Below, one piece after another: positions 28,356 to 48,008 of a DNA stretch of 64,000 nucleotides. Position 1 is the first letter of the stretch; every line of letters starts with the position of its first letter. Where the stretch lies: positions 179,272-243,271 of the forward strand of contig RCMX01000001.1 of NCBI GenBank assembly GCA_004348925.1, in the 5' to 3' direction. Origin of the DNA: Actinomycetota bacterium (lineage in GTDB: Bacteria; Actinomycetota; Coriobacteriia; Anaerosomatales; Anaerosomataceae). Under the pieces are notes generated by a model. That model did no database searches. It was not told the DNA's origin and saw nothing but the letters and a program-made list of their open reading frames with translations. A program made the translations under genes and the position numbers.

Positions 28356-28364
28356 CGGCCCACG

Positions 28365-29211: not shown

Positions 29212-29523
29212 ATGTCTTCCGACCGCCTCCGTACGCCCGAAGTAGAGGCCCTCTTGCGCGCGCTCCTCACGCTCGAGAACGATGATGATGCGTATGCGTT
29301 CTTGCAGGATCTGTGCACGATCCGTGAGATCCAGGATATGGCCCAGCGGTACGCGGTCGCCCGGATGCTCGACGCTGGCGAACACTACACCAGGATCCAG
29401 GAGGCGACCGGAGCGTCCACCACGACGATCAGCCGTGTCAGCCGCTGTCTCAACTACGGCGCCGAGGGCTATCGCCGCGTACTCGATCGCGCGGCTGACG
29501 GTTCCGCGAAGGCGGGCGAGTAG
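29212..29523 (+). CDS. TrpR-like DNA-binding protein, YerC/YecD family
   Basis: A 103-residue all-helical protein related to the Trp repressor. The DNA-binding segment MLDAGEHYTRIQEATGASTTTISRVSRCL is a helix-turn-helix in the TrpR position, preceded by LCTIREIQDMAQRYAVARML. This is the YerC/YecD branch; its ligand and targets are not established, and tryptophan sensing cannot be assumed. ATG 29212 follows GGGGAG. The gene ends 5 nt before dnaE, so the pair is one transcript, an odd association for a small regulator. The trp operon further along carries an inverted repeat at its promoter, but no link can be shown. Confidence 0.85.
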   Translation: MSSDRLRTPEVEALLRALLTLENDDDAYAFLQDLCTIREIQDMAQRYAVARMLDAGEHYTRIQEATGASTTTISRVSRCLNYGAEGYRRVLDRAADGSAKAGE

Positions 29524-33025: not shown

Positions 33026-33073
33026 GCGCTACGCTACCACTCCACCGTGATAAAGTACCGAGAGGTGAATGAC

Positions 33074-34342
33074 ATGCGCCCGCAGACGCCGAGGGGATTC
33101 AGGGACGTGCTCTTCCAGGAGGCAGCCGAGCGCGAGGCTGTCTCTCGTGCGATGGGTGACGTATTCGCCGCATGGGGTTACGCACCGGTGGAAACGCCCG
33201 TCGTCGAGGAGTACGCGGTGCTCGCCGCAGGCGTAGGCGCTGCTGCCGAGCGAACCGCGTTCCGACTGTTCGACCTTGATGGCAGCCTGCTGGCGCTCCG
33301 TCCCGAGATGACTGTTCCGATCGCCCGTGTGGCTGCATCACGACTGGCCGAGCAGCCGGGTCCGCACCGCGTGCGGTACGTCGCCCCGGTCTTCCGCGAG
33401 CACGCCTCGCTGCGTGGCCAGGCGCGCCAGTTCACCCAGGCGGGTATCGAGTTCGTCGGTGCAGGCGGCCCCGTGGCTGATGCCGAGGTCGTGTCGCTTG
33501 CTGTCGAGGCCCTGGAGGCAGCCGGACTCACGGCGTACACCATCGGGATCGGCACGGTCGAGGTCCTGCGCGATCTCATCGCTGCATCCGGCGCCGACGG
33601 GATCTGGGGTGGGGCGGTGATCGCAGCCGCGCACCAGCGCAACCTCGTCGAGTTGGAGCGGTTGGCCTCTGACCCGAGCGTTCGCCCGGAAGTCGCTGCC
33701 GCGCTCATGGCAGCCCCGCGAATCCGCGGCGGCCGAGAGGCGCTCGATCAGTGCCGTGATTTGCTCGTCGCGTGCGGATGCACGGACACGCTTCGTAACC
33801 TGCGTGAGACGTACCGCGTGCTGGAGGGTCTCGGCTATGCGGATCGCGTGACCGTCGACTTCGGCATCATGCGTTCGTTCGACTACTACACCGGTTTCGT
33901 GCTCGAGGCATATGCCCCGGGACTCGGGCTGCCGCTCGGCGGTGGCGGGCGCTACGATCGGCTGCTCGCAACATTCGGCGCGCCGGCACCCGCAGCCGGC
34001 TTCGCGCTCGGCGTCGAGCGCGTCATGATCGCGCTTGCCGAGCAGGGAGCGACGCCTGCCGTGTCCGGGCTCGATGCAGTCATCGGAGGACTCGATTCCG
34101 TGGCGGTCTTCTCGGCCGCGCGTGACCTGCGCGCTGCGGGATGGCGCGTGGCGCCGGCAGTCGGTCAGGACGGCATCGCACTCGTGCGGGAAGCGGAGCG
34201 CGCCGATGCGGCCGAGGCGCTCGTGGCCGACGACGGTGCGATCATCCGGCTCGACCGTGCGGGTGAGCGCGCTCTGCCGCTGGAGAAGCCACTGCCTTCG
34301 GCGCCCGGGTCGACCTGGGCGCAGAAAGGCGGTGCACGATGA
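33074..34342 (+). CDS. hisZ: ATP phosphoribosyltransferase regulatory subunit
   Basis: HisRS-like paralogue that pairs with short-form HisG and carries histidine feedback. The 422 residues start with RPQTPRGFRDVLFQEAAERE. They keep class II aminoacyl-tRNA synthetase-like segments (FRLFDLDGSLLALRPEMTVPIARVAA, VRYVAPVFREH, SFDYYTGFVLEAY and FALGVERVMIALAEQG) but have only a degenerate C-terminal region in place of the anticodon-binding domain. ATG 33074 follows AGAGGTG. It overlaps hisG by 4 nt, and that hisG is the short form that requires HisZ, which decides between hisZ and hisS. Confidence 0.92.
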   Translation: MRPQTPRGFRDVLFQEAAEREAVSRAMGDVFAAWGYAPVETPVVEEYAVLAAGVGAAAERTAFRLFDLDGSLLALRPEMTVPIARVAASRLAEQPGPHRVRYVAPVFREHASLRGQARQFTQAGIEFVGAGGPVADAEVVSLAVEALEAAGLTAYTIGIGTVEVLRDLIAASGADGIWGGAVIAAAHQRNLVELERLASDPSVRPEVAAALMAAPRIRGGREALDQCRDLLVACGCTDTLRNLRETYRVLEGLGYADRVTVDFGIMRSFDYYTGFVLEAYAPGLGLPLGGGGRYDRLLATFGAPAPAAGFALGVERVMIALAEQGATPAVSGLDAVIGGLDSVAVFSAARDLRAAGWRVAPAVGQDGIALVREAERADAAEALVADDGAIIRLDRAGERALPLEKPLPSAPGSTWAQKGGAR

Positions 34343-35010
34343 TCGTCCGCATGCCATCCGAGGCGTCCCGGCCGCTCCGCATCGCCGTTCCCAAAGGAGC
34401 GCTGTTCGCGGACTCCGTGCGCGCGCTCGAGCTCGCAGGTATCGACGTCACCGGCCTCGCGGATCCCGGCCGTCACCTGATTGTTCGCTCCTCAGACGCC
34501 GAGTTCATCATCGCGAAGCCCACCGACGTGCCCATCTACGTCGCCTATGGCGGCGTTGACGTGGCGATTTCCGGCAAGGACGTGCTCGTCGAGGCCGATC
34601 TTGACGTCGTCGAGATGGTGGACCTCTGCTTCGGCGGATGCCGATTCGTGGTCGCGGAACCCGAGGACGCCCCGCGCAGCATCGATGAGCTCTACCGTCA
34701 CCTTGGCGTGATCCGCGTCGCCACCAAGTATCCGCGCATCGCCGAGGCGCACTTCGCCGCTCGCGGCGTGCAGGTGGAGATCGTCAAGCTGCATGGGAAC
34801 ATAGAGTTGGCTCCGCTCATCGGGCTTGCGGATCGCATCGTTGACATCACGGCAACCGGTCGAACGCTTGCTGAGAACAATCTGCGTATCGTGGAAGAGG
34901 TGCTCGCGTCGACGGCGCGGTTCGTGGCGAACCCGGTGAGTCTCAAGACCGAACCGGAGCGCGTACGAGACCTCGCGGACAGGCTTGCGGCCGTCGTGCC
35001 GCTGCCATAG
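34339..35010 (+). CDS. hisG: ATP phosphoribosyltransferase, short form
   Basis: First enzyme of histidine synthesis (ATP plus PRPP to phosphoribosyl-ATP). At 223 residues it has the two periplasmic-binding-like lobes (IAVPKGALFADSVRALELAGI; AEFIIAKPTDVPIYVAYGGVDVAISGKDVL). It also has VDITATGRTLAENNLRIVEEV, but it lacks the C-terminal ACT-like regulatory domain of long HisG. It therefore needs HisZ, encoded just upstream with an ATGA overlap. The start is fixed by that overlap. Confidence 0.95.
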   Translation: MIVRMPSEASRPLRIAVPKGALFADSVRALELAGIDVTGLADPGRHLIVRSSDAEFIIAKPTDVPIYVAYGGVDVAISGKDVLVEADLDVVEMVDLCFGGCRFVVAEPEDAPRSIDELYRHLGVIRVATKYPRIAEAHFAARGVQVEIVKLHGNIELAPLIGLADRIVDITATGRTLAENNLRIVEEVLASTARFVANPVSLKTEPERVRDLADRLAAVVPLP

Positions 35011-35027
35011 GAAGGGGAGACCACGAC

Positions 35028-36341
35028 ATGATGCGACGAATCGAACTTGCGCGTGGCACGTGGCTCGAAGCCGGTGATATTCCGCGCAGCGGCGGCATAG
35101 ACGCCGAGGTGCTCAACGTGGCATCACGGATCATCGACGACGTACGCGCCCGCGGCGACGAAGCGCTGCGCGACTACACCGAGCAATTCGACCATGCGGT
35201 AGTCGGCGAGTTTGCCGTCACCGAAGAAGAGATGACCGAGGCGCTCGATCTCGTGGGCGACGACTTCAAGGAGGCTATCTCGGCTGCCGCGATGGCGATC
35301 GAGGACTTCCACCGTCGTCAGGTGCCGCAGAGCTGGTTCACCGTGGAGGAGGGCGGCATCTTCCTCGGGCAGAAAGTCACGCCGATAGCGCGCGTGGGTA
35401 TCTACGTGCCCGGTGGGCGCGCCTGCTACCCGTCGAGCGTGCTCATGAACGCGATCCCGGCGTTCGTAGCCGGCGTCGAGGAAGTGGCGATGGTCGTTCC
35501 TCCGGGACCCGACGGCAAGGTCAACCCGTACACGCTTGCCGCGGCCGCCGAGGCCGGGGTCACCGAGATCTACAAGGTCGGCGGCGCACAGGCGATCGCG
35601 GCGCTCGCGGTCGGCACGGCCTCGATCCCGCGGGTCGACAAGATCACCGGACCCGGTAACGCCTACGTGACCGCCGCGAAGAAGCTCGTGATGGGCGAAG
35701 TCGGCATCGACATGCTCGCCGGACCGAGCGAGGTTCTCATCCTTGCCGATGAGACCGCGGAACCCGCGTTCGTCGCGATCGACCTCATGGCGCAGGCCGA
35801 GCACGACCCGAAGGCTGCGACGTATCTGGTGACGACTGACCCCGACCTCCCCGATGCCGTCGATGAAGCGCTCGAGATCCTGCTCGAGGACTCTGCCCGC
35901 GCGGATGTGATTCGACGGTCGCTTTCTGACAACGGCGTCGTCATCATCTGCCCGGACGTGGATGTCGCCATCGATGCCGCGAACCTCGTGGCGCCGGAGC
36001 ACCTGGAGGTCATGATGGCCGAGCCGCTGGAGCTGCTCGGCAGTATCCGTAACGCTGGTGCGATCTTCCTCGGCCCGTGGACGCCCGAGAGCGTTGGCGA
36101 CTACGTTGCCGGGCCCAACCACGTCCTGCCAACCGGCGGGACCGCACGATTCTCAAGCCCGCTGTCCGTGGACGATTTCATCAAGAAGTCCTCGGTGCTG
36201 AGCTACTCGCTCGAGGGGCTCGAGATGGACGGCCCCACGGTGATGACGATCGCCCAGGCCGAGGGGCTCGAAGCACATGCCCGCGCCGTCGGCCTGCGTC
36301 TTGCCATGGCGTACGCGCTCGACGATGACGGGGAGGAGTAG
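35028..36341 (+). CDS. hisD: Histidinol dehydrogenase
   Basis: NAD-dependent, zinc-containing enzyme for the last two oxidations to histidine. The 437 residues include GIYVPGGRACYPSSVLMNAIPA, KVGGAQAIAALAVGT, KITGPGNAYVTAAKK, DMLAGPSEVLILAD, the zinc ligands in DLMAQAEHDPKA, and GPNHVLPTGGTARFSSPLSV. All conserved blocks are present. Two adjacent ATG codons (35028 and 35031) follow AAGGGGAGA. It lies 17 nt after hisG and directly abuts hisC. Confidence 0.97.
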   Translation: MMRRIELARGTWLEAGDIPRSGGIDAEVLNVASRIIDDVRARGDEALRDYTEQFDHAVVGEFAVTEEEMTEALDLVGDDFKEAISAAAMAIEDFHRRQVPQSWFTVEEGGIFLGQKVTPIARVGIYVPGGRACYPSSVLMNAIPAFVAGVEEVAMVVPPGPDGKVNPYTLAAAAEAGVTEIYKVGGAQAIAALAVGTASIPRVDKITGPGNAYVTAAKKLVMGEVGIDMLAGPSEVLILADETAEPAFVAIDLMAQAEHDPKAATYLVTTDPDLPDAVDEALEILLEDSARADVIRRSLSDNGVVIICPDVDVAIDAANLVAPEHLEVMMAEPLELLGSIRNAGAIFLGPWTPESVGDYVAGPNHVLPTGGTARFSSPLSVDDFIKKSSVLSYSLEGLEMDGPTVMTIAQAEGLEAHARAVGLRLAMAYALDDDGEE

Positions 36342-45374: not shown

Positions 45375-45788
45375 CTACAGCAGGCGGATCTCCACCGCCG
45401 TCGTGATGTCGGCGAATGCCCGGTGGTCGGCCGTCACGAGCGGGCATCCAAGTTCTTCGGCAAATGCGAGGAATAGCGCGTCATAGACGGTGATGTCGTT
45501 CGTGTACGCAAGGGATGTGGCACGTCCGATGCGCGACGTGTCAGCGTCGATGAGCTCGAGATGAAGCTGCTCGAAAGCTTCGAGGGCATCGAGAACGTCC
45601 GGCGCGCTCAGGCCTGAGTATCGCAGGCCGTTGGCGACCTCGACGGGCAGTGTGGCTGGCGCCACGAGCAGGATGCGACGGGCGAGGTGTGCGTCGAGCA
45701 GTGCCATTGCTTCGGGTACCGAGTCCTCGCCGTCCTGGAACACCCACTTGAAGGCGACCGAGGTGTCGACGACGACCGGGGCGTTCAT
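45375..45788 (-). CDS. vapC: VapC-type PIN-domain ribonuclease toxin
   Basis: A 137-residue PIN-fold endoribonuclease. The acidic metal-binding residues are in place: Asp8 (VVVDTSVAFKWV), Glu50 (LPVEVANGL), Asp103 (TVYDALFLAFAEEL) and Asp121 (LVTADHRAF). Such toxins cleave tRNA or rRNA and are inhibited by the neighbouring antitoxin. It overlaps the antitoxin gene by ATGA, the usual order (antitoxin first). The target is unknown. Confidence 0.9.
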   Translation of the reverse strand: MNAPVVVDTSVAFKWVFQDGEDSVPEAMALLDAHLARRILLVAPATLPVEVANGLRYSGLSAPDVLDALEAFEQLHLELIDADTSRIGRATSLAYTNDITVYDALFLAFAEELGCPLVTADHRAFADITTAVEIRLL

Positions 45789-46072
45789 CGGCTGCTCGCA
45801 GGAGGGGTGTCGCGCTCCCGGTCTTCGCGCAGACGTGCGAGCAGGTCGGTGCCCGGGGGAAGGCGCCTGCCGATTCTCGCGAGCGAAGCGACGCCCCTCT
45901 CGATGTCCTTGGCGCGGCGTTCCTCGGCAGAGAGGTTGTGTACGTCGGCCAGGTAGCGCGCACTCGCCTCGGCGATGAATCCGCTGCGAGAGAGGCCGAG
46001 CTCATCCGCTGCAGCGTCGATCTCCTCGACGAGATCCGGCGAAAGGGAGACGTTCACTTTGTAGACACCCAC
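45785..46072 (-). CDS. vapB: Ribbon-helix-helix antitoxin (VapB-like)
   Basis: A 95-residue protein whose start, YKVNVSLSPDLVEEIDAAADELGLSRSGFIAEASARYL, is a ribbon-helix-helix DNA-binding fold. The charged C-terminal half should wrap and inhibit VapC. GTG 46072 follows GAGGAG. Upstream lies an operator-like region with a tandem 12-bp repeat. Autoregulation of the pair is expected from the family. Confidence 0.88.
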   Translation of the reverse strand: MGVYKVNVSLSPDLVEEIDAAADELGLSRSGFIAEASARYLADVHNLSAEERRAKDIERGVASLARIGRRLPPGTDLLARLREDRERDTPPASSR

Positions 46073-46083
46073 GGCTCCTCCTC

Positions 46084-46123
46084 GCTACCGAGATACACCA
46101 AAGAGATACACCAATATGGTAGC
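46084..46123 (-). promoter_or_regulatory. Operator region of vapBC: tandem 12-bp repeats inside an inverted repeat
   Basis: On the plus strand GAGATACACCAA occurs twice, at 46090-46101 and 46103-46114 (13-nt period). The pair is flanked by GCTACC (46084-46089) and its inverse GGTAGC (46118-46123). It lies just upstream of vapB. Ribbon-helix-helix antitoxins bind tandem short sites of this kind, so this is the probable autoregulatory operator. Confidence 0.6.
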
Positions 46124-46141
46124 CGTGCCCTCTGACACGTT

Positions 46142-46188
46142 CAACCGTCCGGACCACGGTTGCACCATCACCTCTCGGCTGGTAGAGT
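46142..46188 (+). promoter_or_regulatory. trp operon promoter with an inverted repeat over the -35
   Basis: TTGCAC (46160-46165) and TAGAGT (46183-46188) are spaced by 17 nt, placing transcription start near 46195 at the head of the T-box leader. A perfect 7-bp inverted repeat, CAACCGT (46142-46148) and ACGGTTG (46156-46162), overlaps the -35. This suggests a repressor or activator acting in addition to the T-box. Confidence 0.55.
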
Positions 46189-46194
46189 TCTCGG

Positions 46195-46500
46195 CAATCA
46201 CATAGCACGCCTGTGACGGGGAGTAGTACTCCGGAAGCACTGCATAGAGAGTCGGGGACGGTGGAAACCCGACGTGTGTGACCGGCAGGAATGGACCTCT
46301 GAGGCTCCTGGGACAACGGCAGCGATGCCTACTAGTCCCGGCGGAAGCCCACCGATACAAGGGACCGGGTATAGCGAGAGGGTTTCGCAGTACTGCAGGA
46401 AGAGGCCGCGGCGGCAACACTGCGGCAAGTAGGGTGGCACCACGGGAGCGAAGCTCTCGTCCCTTCGAGGACGAGGGCTTTTTGTATTCTCCGGGTCCAT
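46195..46500 (+). promoter_or_regulatory. T-box riboswitch sensing uncharged tRNA-Trp
   Basis: Transcriptional T-box leader of the trp operon. The conserved T-box sequence AGGGTGGCACCACG is at 46431-46444, just before an intrinsic terminator. A stem-I specifier fits TGG at 46292-46294 in the context GGAATGGACC, the Trp codon. The variable base in TGGC is C, which pairs with the G73 discriminator of tRNA-Trp. When tryptophan is short, uncharged tRNA-Trp should stabilise the antiterminator and allow read-through into trpE. Confidence 0.92.
46453..46483 (+). terminator. T-box controlled intrinsic terminator
   Basis: A 10-bp stem (46453-46462 with 46469-46478, one G-U pair) with a 6-nt loop is followed by TTTTT at 46479-46483. 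It lies immediately 3' of the T-box sequence, so antiterminator and terminator are mutually exclusive. Confidence 0.88.
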
Positions 46501-46514
46501 CCAGAAAGCGAGTC

Positions 46515-48008
46515 ATGCACATGATCGTTCCGAGCAAGGAAGCGTTCGTCCGGCTGGCAGCCGATCACGACGTCGTGCCGGTCGCCCGCGAGGTCTACGC
46601 CGACCTCGCCACGCCGATCAGCGCGTTCATGTCCCTTGCCGAGGGTGCTGAGCACGCGTTCTTGCTGGAGAGCGTCCTTGGCGGCGAGCGGCTCGGCCGC
46701 TATAGCTTCCTCGGCGTGGGTGACCGGGAGGTCATCACCGCTCGCGGCGACGAAGTCGTCATCGAGAACGGTGGCGTCACCGGTGAGCGCGCCGGCGATC
46801 CCCTGCGGGTCGTGGCGCGCAAGCTCGACGCCGGTCGCGTTGCGCGGGTCCCCGGGCTGCCGCTCTTCGTAGGCGGCGCGGTCGGGTTCCTCGGCTATGA
46901 GGCGACCGCAGGGTTCGAGCGCGTTCCCCGCCACGAGAACGACGAGCTCAACGTCCCCGACCTGGTCTTTATGATGGCCGACATCGTGGTCGCCTTCGAT
47001 CACGCGCGGCGCGTCATGCAGGTCATCGCGCCGGTACGCCCCGGGGGCGCACCGGAGGCCGCCTACGACGCGGCGCTCAAGCGCATCGACGTCTACCTCA
47101 AGCGCATCGACGAAGGCCCTCGCGGCGCTGAGCTCGGCTCGGTGGGCGCGGCGGCCGAGGTGCCGCTCACCGCACACACGTCCCGCGAGGAGTTCATCGC
47201 GAGCGTGGAGGCGGGCAAGGAGCACATCGCGGCCGGCGACATCTTCCAGATCGTGCTCTCGCAGCGTTTCTCGGCACCGTATGAGGGCGACGGGCTCGAC
47301 CTGTATCGCGTGCTCCGCGCGGTCAACCCGAGCCCGTACATGTTCTACGTCCGCACGCGTGAGGTCACGCTCGTCGGTTCGAGCCCTGAGCCGCTCGTGC
47401 GTGTGGAGGACGGCACCGTGCTCACGCGTCCGCTCGCCGGCACGCGCCCGCGCGGCGTCGATGCTGCCGAGGACGGGCGTCTGCGCGCGGACCTGCTCGC
47501 CGACGAGAAGGAGCGCGCCGAGCACGTCATGCTCGTGGATCTCGGGCGCAACGACCTCGGCCGCGTGAGCGCGCCGGGCACCGTGAAAGTCGACGAGCTC
47601 ATGGAAGTCGAGTACTACAGCCACGTCATGCACATCGTCAGCAACGTCACCGGTGTGCTTGCCGAGGGGAAGGACGCCTTCGACGCACTGCGCGCCACGT
47701 TCCCGGCAGGCACCGTCTCCGGCGCGCCGAAAGTGCGCGCGATGGAGCTCATCGCCGGTCTCGAGCCAGCTGCACGCGGTCCGTACGCCGGCACGGTCGG
47801 CTACTTCGGCCTCGATGGCGCGATGGACATGTGCATCACGATTCGCACGATCGTCCTCGCGAACGGTCGGGCGTACCTGCAATCCGGCGCGGGTATCGTT
47901 GCCGATTCCAACCCGGAGCTCGAGTTCGAGGAGTGCCAGCACAAGGCGCGCGCGCTTCACCGGGCGCTCGAACTCGCCGCCGGAATGTACGAGGACGTGT
48001 CGGCATGA
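46515..48008 (+). CDS. trpE: Anthranilate synthase component I
   Basis: Chorismate-utilising subunit of anthranilate synthase, 497 residues. The N-terminal domain holds the tryptophan feedback region ([19 protein letters not shown] with LLES). The chorismate-binding domain contains [55 protein letters not shown] and [19 protein letters not shown]. Two ATG codons (46515 and 46521) are possible; neither has a strong Shine-Dalgarno sequence. The stop overlaps trpGD by ATGA. Confidence 0.96.

Follow-up and report, generated by a model that had tools for sequence, protein, structure and literature searches.

In Escherichia coli, the TrpR repressor and an attenuator together control the trp operon. 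Control of initiation is also combined with a T-box in the Staphylococcus aureus met operon, for which the joint use of CodY and a T-box was described from experiments (PMC3771891). Trp T-boxes preceding trpE were published for Dehalococcoides (PMC2494555), and ileS T-boxes of Actinobacteria are mentioned in two surveys (PMC1262725 and PMC2494555). No publication on a trpE T-box leader of the lineage studied here was found in our literature search, whose scope did not extend to T-box surveys in subscription journals. The product of yerC was named HisR in PMC9413887, which describes the motif cacTTTAnnnnnnTAAAgtg in Firmicutes, Actinobacteria, and Synergistetes, in vitro binding with the Ruminococcus gnavus protein, and autoregulation of hisR in 20 actinobacterial genomes. 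Coriobacteriales and Eggerthellales are named among the actinobacterial orders in that source.

We analyzed a window of 64,000 nucleotides (the whole stretch of DNA introduced above) from a genome of an uncultured actinobacterial order near Coriobacteriia. A sequence-only reading had proposed dual control of the trp operon in this window, by a promoter dyad serving as an operator, possibly for a TrpR-family protein encoded at 29212, and by a tRNA-Trp T-box. The T-box half of the proposal was upheld by structure and conservation. The promoter-dyad half was not, as the dyad is not conserved and dyads of its kind occur at the rate expected by chance. We judge with high confidence that trp would be controlled by the T-box, that the dyad would be a chance repeat, and that the 29212 protein would be HisR, acting on the his operon. 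Features are listed in Table 1.

Table 1. Features of the trp and his regions, with positions in the window
Feature	Position	Strand	Basis or remark
YerC/YecD family TrpR-related protein, HisR in the literature	29212..29523	+	TIGR02531, 113.5 bits (cut-off 42.2)
Candidate HisR operator CACTCCACCGTGATAAAGTA	33038..33057	+	Window's best match to the published motif; 16 bp before hisZ
Start of his operon: hisZ 33074-34339, hisG 34339-35007, hisD match 35100-36302	33074..36338	+	Protein matches
PIN-domain (VapC-like) toxin gene	45375..45788	-	Pfam PIN
RHH (CopG/VapB-like) antitoxin gene, divergent from trp	45785..46072	-	Pfam RHH_1
GATACACCAA direct repeats (46092, 46105)	46092..46114	-	Likely autoregulatory site (putative function)
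Predicted vapBC promoter	46116..46144	-	-35 TTGAAC 46139-46144, 17 bp, -10 TACCAT 46116-46121
Dyad CAACCGTCCGGACCACGGTTG (CAACCGT-N7-ACGGTTG)	46142..46162	.	Exact; best read as chance
trp promoter	46160..46188	+	-35 TTGCAC 46160-46165, 17-bp spacer, -10 TAGAGT 46183-46188
tRNA-Trp T-box leader, stem I through antiterminator	46204..46467	+	RF00230, 85 bits, E 4.4e-19
Specifier codon TGG (Trp)	46292..46294	+	Read within the T-box
Antiterminator, 7-nt bulge UGGCACC 46435-46441	46431..46464	+	UGGC complementary to tRNA-Trp GCCA
Intrinsic terminator, stem 46453-46478 then U5	46453..46483	+	Exclusive with the antiterminator
trpE	46515..48008	+	Profile match

The T-box match falls below the RF00230 gathering score of 93, a curator's cut-off rather than a mechanistic feature, and a default whole-window scan therefore lists none. 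The bulge carries TGGC at 46435-46438, and the genome's own tRNA-Trp (L175, 396-471) ends in G-CCA, so that the discriminator G faces the bulge C. The terminator hairpin (-17.4 kcal/mol) occupies the strand needed by the antiterminator. The TGG specifier and the discriminator-pairing C that had been read from the letters alone were confirmed by the RF00230 match, by the GCCA end of the tRNA, and by conservation. Judged by its sequence, the leader before trpE is an ordinary transcription-attenuation tRNA-Trp T-box, with a response to tRNA predicted from the known family.

A protein search for trpE gave matches in 49 of 61 genomes, ranging from genus to order. We read 48 leaders, the window's own included, and left out G041, in which the match starts at a contig end. 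An RF00230 match lies directly 5' of trpE in 47 of these leaders; the sole miss (L047) lies at a contig end and has only 35 bases. The gathering score was reached by 14 of the 47, and not by the window's own leader. The specifier is TGG in every one of the 47 T-boxes (46 by pattern, G059 by reading), and the bulge in the relatives is UGGC or UGGU. When the 47 leaders were aligned, standard pairs were found in 97.1% of cells for stem III plus the antiterminator (slid controls, ≤55.2%) and in 99.6% for the terminator (slid controls, ≤59.4%). Two-sided changes back 6 of 7 pairs in stem III and 1 of 10 in the terminator. Pairing reaches 100% and 99% in the antiterminator helices, which are nearly invariant, so covariation speaks neither for nor against them.

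Following trpE, the genes are a fused trpG-trpD, trpC, a TrpB-like gene, trpF, trpB, and trpA, with trpE, trpGD, and the TrpB-like gene assigned by profile match and trpC, trpF, trpB, and trpA named by eye from ORFs. The TrpB-like gene (TIGR01415, 50581-51948) thus sits in the trp operon beside another ORF, named trpB by eye. Further T-boxes were observed elsewhere in the same genome. One, with an apparent ATG (Met) specifier, lies at 1501-1805 of L008 (C2:95133-95437), before a HcyBio homocysteine-biosynthesis gene (PF01837, 496 bits). A literature search for publications on a Met T-box at the HcyBio sulfur-incorporation route returned nothing obvious, and this T-box may merit attention. The others (L005, L007, and L009), with genes and specifiers read by eye, stand before genes resembling ilvD (apparent specifier CTC, Leu), ileS (apparent ATC, Ile), and pheS (a partial T-box match, apparent TTC, Phe).

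The trp promoter is of the sigma-70 type and has an extended -10, with TG one base 5' of TAGAGT. It was not listed by a generic promoter scan, TTGCAC/TAGAGT being under the scan threshold. The element recurs at near-constant spacing to stem I of the T-box in 43 of the 48 leaders, a promoter being counted as located if its -10 starts 29 to 37 bases 5' of the stem I anchor; this count leaves out G010, G018, G028, and G039, which have no anchor, and G032, which has no located promoter. The search demanded TTG, so that these three letters are necessarily conserved, and the fourth base of the -35 hexamer, which was not forced, is C in 37 of 42. Columns 5' of the -35 reach at most 0.8 bits, with just 4 bases available there in G022.

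The exact dyad that had been noted across the -35 is present at 46142-46162 and overlaps TTGCAC. Among the 43 leaders with a located promoter, in a comparison set of one genome per species, it was found in the window's own genome only. The three same-genus leaders (G001, G003, and G004) retain the promoter as TTGCGC-17/18-TA(G/C)A(G/C)T, with the dyad's left arm missing. A search for any other conserved dyad at the trp -35 (arms of at least 6, gap 0 to 20) gave hits at only two of the 43 promoters, that of the window and, with an unrelated dyad, that of G038. The proposed initiation-level operator did not survive this comparison: relatives that could be read keep the promoter but lack the dyad, the very outcome that the sequence-only reading had named as refuting; across the 43 promoters, no TrpR-type operator is conserved along with the promoter. 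In the trp upstream region of G024 (L057), an inverted repeat TGGTCCGGCC...GGCCGGACCA, which differs in sequence from the window's dyad, lies directly 5' of the -35.

Dyads of this kind are as frequent as chance would make them. Perfect 7+7 dyads with gaps of 0 to 15 number 146 in the window (~0.25 per 100 bp), vs 141 to 179 in six simulations with first-order Markov sequences (also used for the HisR site counts below); restricting the gap to 7 leaves 9 vs 4 to 15. Only the T-box stands above chance; the dyad, whose kind occurs at the simulated rate, does not. The exact trp dyad has a single copy in the 2.25-Mb genome, and sites with up to two mismatches number 13, the trp dyad itself included, vs 10 for a reversed-pattern control. 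We rejected two other roles for the dyad: that of an intrinsic terminator, as a T run is absent 3' of it on either strand, and that of a regulon site, as there is one genomic copy.

The vapBC-like module that diverges from trp offers an account of how the dyad arose. Its stretch was matched in 19 of 69 genomes of the order, the window's genome included; in the three same-genus trp upstream regions, the only match to it was a short one at the trp promoter end, seen in two. At 46092-46122, GATACACC direct repeats precede the vapB-like gene and recur with a AGTGTATC half site in homologous modules; such repeats are a likely autoregulatory site of the module. In the 12 loci compared, GATACACC repeats, AGTGTATC, and then a CTCTGACACGCGTCAA-type tail recur 5' of the module, and the tail ends in TCAA in 6 of the 11 other loci, one locus being cut before the tail end. 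The tail in the window is GACACGTTCAA, from which TTGAAC-17-TACCAT is read on the minus strand (46144-46116). All 11 other vapBC-like loci lack the dyad, with 5 to 7 mismatches of 14. The trp -35 and the predicted vapBC -35 stand back to back, 15 bp apart, with the perfect dyad across both; the TTG of the former makes up the right end of the dyad, and that of the latter probably the left. Three of the seven bases in each arm would thus probably come from a -35 TTG, with the other four matching by coincidence.

The sequence-only reading had also taken the gene at 29212 for a TrpR-family gene. The protein does fall within the Pfam Trp_repressor family, as the sole match in the genome, but it is not TrpR itself: it scores 26 bits against the TrpR model TIGR01321 (cut-off 67.25), below the score required of a TrpR equivalog, vs 113.5 against TIGR02531. 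A YerC/YecD family protein was found in 55 of 61 genomes. The candidate HisR operator lies directly 3' of TTGACG-17-GATACT (read by eye). For comparison across genomes, hisD was found in 29 of 31, and 26 upstream stretches were read, those of G011, G036, and G037 being too near contig ends. A HisR site with up to 3 of 14 mismatches precedes the his genes in 22 of the 26 genomes (0.05 of 26 in simulations), and one with up to 4 in 24 (1.15 of 26). The best site is located 5' of hisZ in the 22 genomes in which a sequence pattern identified that gene. Of the two genomes without a site, G032 lacks a YerC/YecD protein and G038 has one.

When the genome was scanned with the published consensus and 3 mismatches were allowed, 6 sites appeared vs 19 for the reversed control, so the pattern alone is not evidence, and position and conservation count instead. 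No HisR-type site was found at trp 46060-46210, where the best match has 6 mismatches; in the last 600 bases of the 48 trp leaders, the best match has at least 5 mismatches in 46 and 4 in two. Since a conserved candidate site is found at his and none at trp, the protein has its likely home at his. Based on family, motif, and conservation, it is most likely HisR and would control the his operon from 33038-33057. The candidate operator is conserved across this order, which the accessible part of PMC9413887 does not name among Actinobacteria.

In the explanation that we favor, the sigma-70-type promoter would drive transcription of trp, and a tRNA-Trp T-box of class I, which acts by terminating transcription, would exert control after initiation. 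Uncharged tRNA-Trp would pair through its anticodon CCA with the UGG specifier and through its GCCA end with the UGGC bulge, thereby holding the antiterminator, and RNA polymerase would proceed into trpE; with charged tRNA, the terminator would remain. The dyad would be a chance repeat at the point where the vapBC-like module abuts the trp promoter, rather than an operator, and HisR would act at his. Some points weigh against this explanation: the T-box scores below the RF00230 gathering score in this genome, although 14 of the 47 leaders reach it; coincidence alone would have to account for the four further matched bases per arm; and the vapBC promoter is a prediction, with the TCAA end in just 6 of the 11 homologous modules. 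Dual control, with the 29212 protein repressing initiation at the dyad and the T-box acting after initiation, would draw on an exact dyad overlapping the -35, on a TrpR-family gene within the window, and on the precedent of repressor plus leader control at E. coli trp. We nevertheless judge it extremely unlikely. The dyad occurs in one genome only, although the promoter and the protein are widely kept; at 21 bp with an odd center, it is unlike the 20-bp HisR and TrpR sites and dissimilar to their motifs; and the published-type site of the protein is located at his.

The dyad could instead belong to the vapBC-like module as its autoregulatory operator, with an incidental effect on trp. It lies just past the module, and its left end coincides with the predicted vapBC -35, but none of the 11 other homologous loci has it and the module has its own recurring repeats between the predicted -10 and vapB, making such a role very improbable. 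Another alternative is a species-specific operator of another regulator, common to both divergent promoters and coupling vapBC with trp: back-to-back -35 boxes under a perfect dyad would fit it, yet the chance-level frequency and single genomic copy of the dyad speak against it, and we give it scant credence. A more specific version, in which the arrival of the toxin-antitoxin module in one species made the shared dyad and a resident DNA-binding protein came to couple trp initiation to the module, atop the T-box, would be a long shot. The chance repeat that we favor carries a caution: two divergent promoters can between them produce a palindrome at a -35.

Compared with known systems, the locus resembles E. 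coli trp in the general idea of TrpR plus attenuator, but a conserved operator at the trp promoter is absent here. Initiation control combined with a T-box is already described for S. aureus met (PMC3771891), where regulator, amino acid, and phylum differ; here, the combination is unsupported, and a tempting case of dual trp control is removed. As in PMC9413887, a TIGR02531 protein accompanies a 20-bp CACTnnAnnnnnnTAAAGTn site just 5' of the his operon. Unlike the hisR autoregulation described there, hisZ-G-D here closely follow hisR and dnaE, and no site was found near hisR in the window, the best other match having 4 mismatches (at 28363). A TrpR-like gene is thus assigned to histidine control, with a candidate site conserved across genera. 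The leader shares with class I, Trp-specific T-boxes (RF00230, transcription attenuation) a stem I with specifier loop, a UGGN bulge, a competing terminator with U run, and a position 5' of the trp operon; it differs in lineage, and trp operons throughout an uncultured actinobacterial order near Coriobacteriia are added to those with a Trp T-box. The supposed combination of the two known mechanisms, Trp T-box and HisR, at trp is not supported, and what the locus provides is a new lineage for both.
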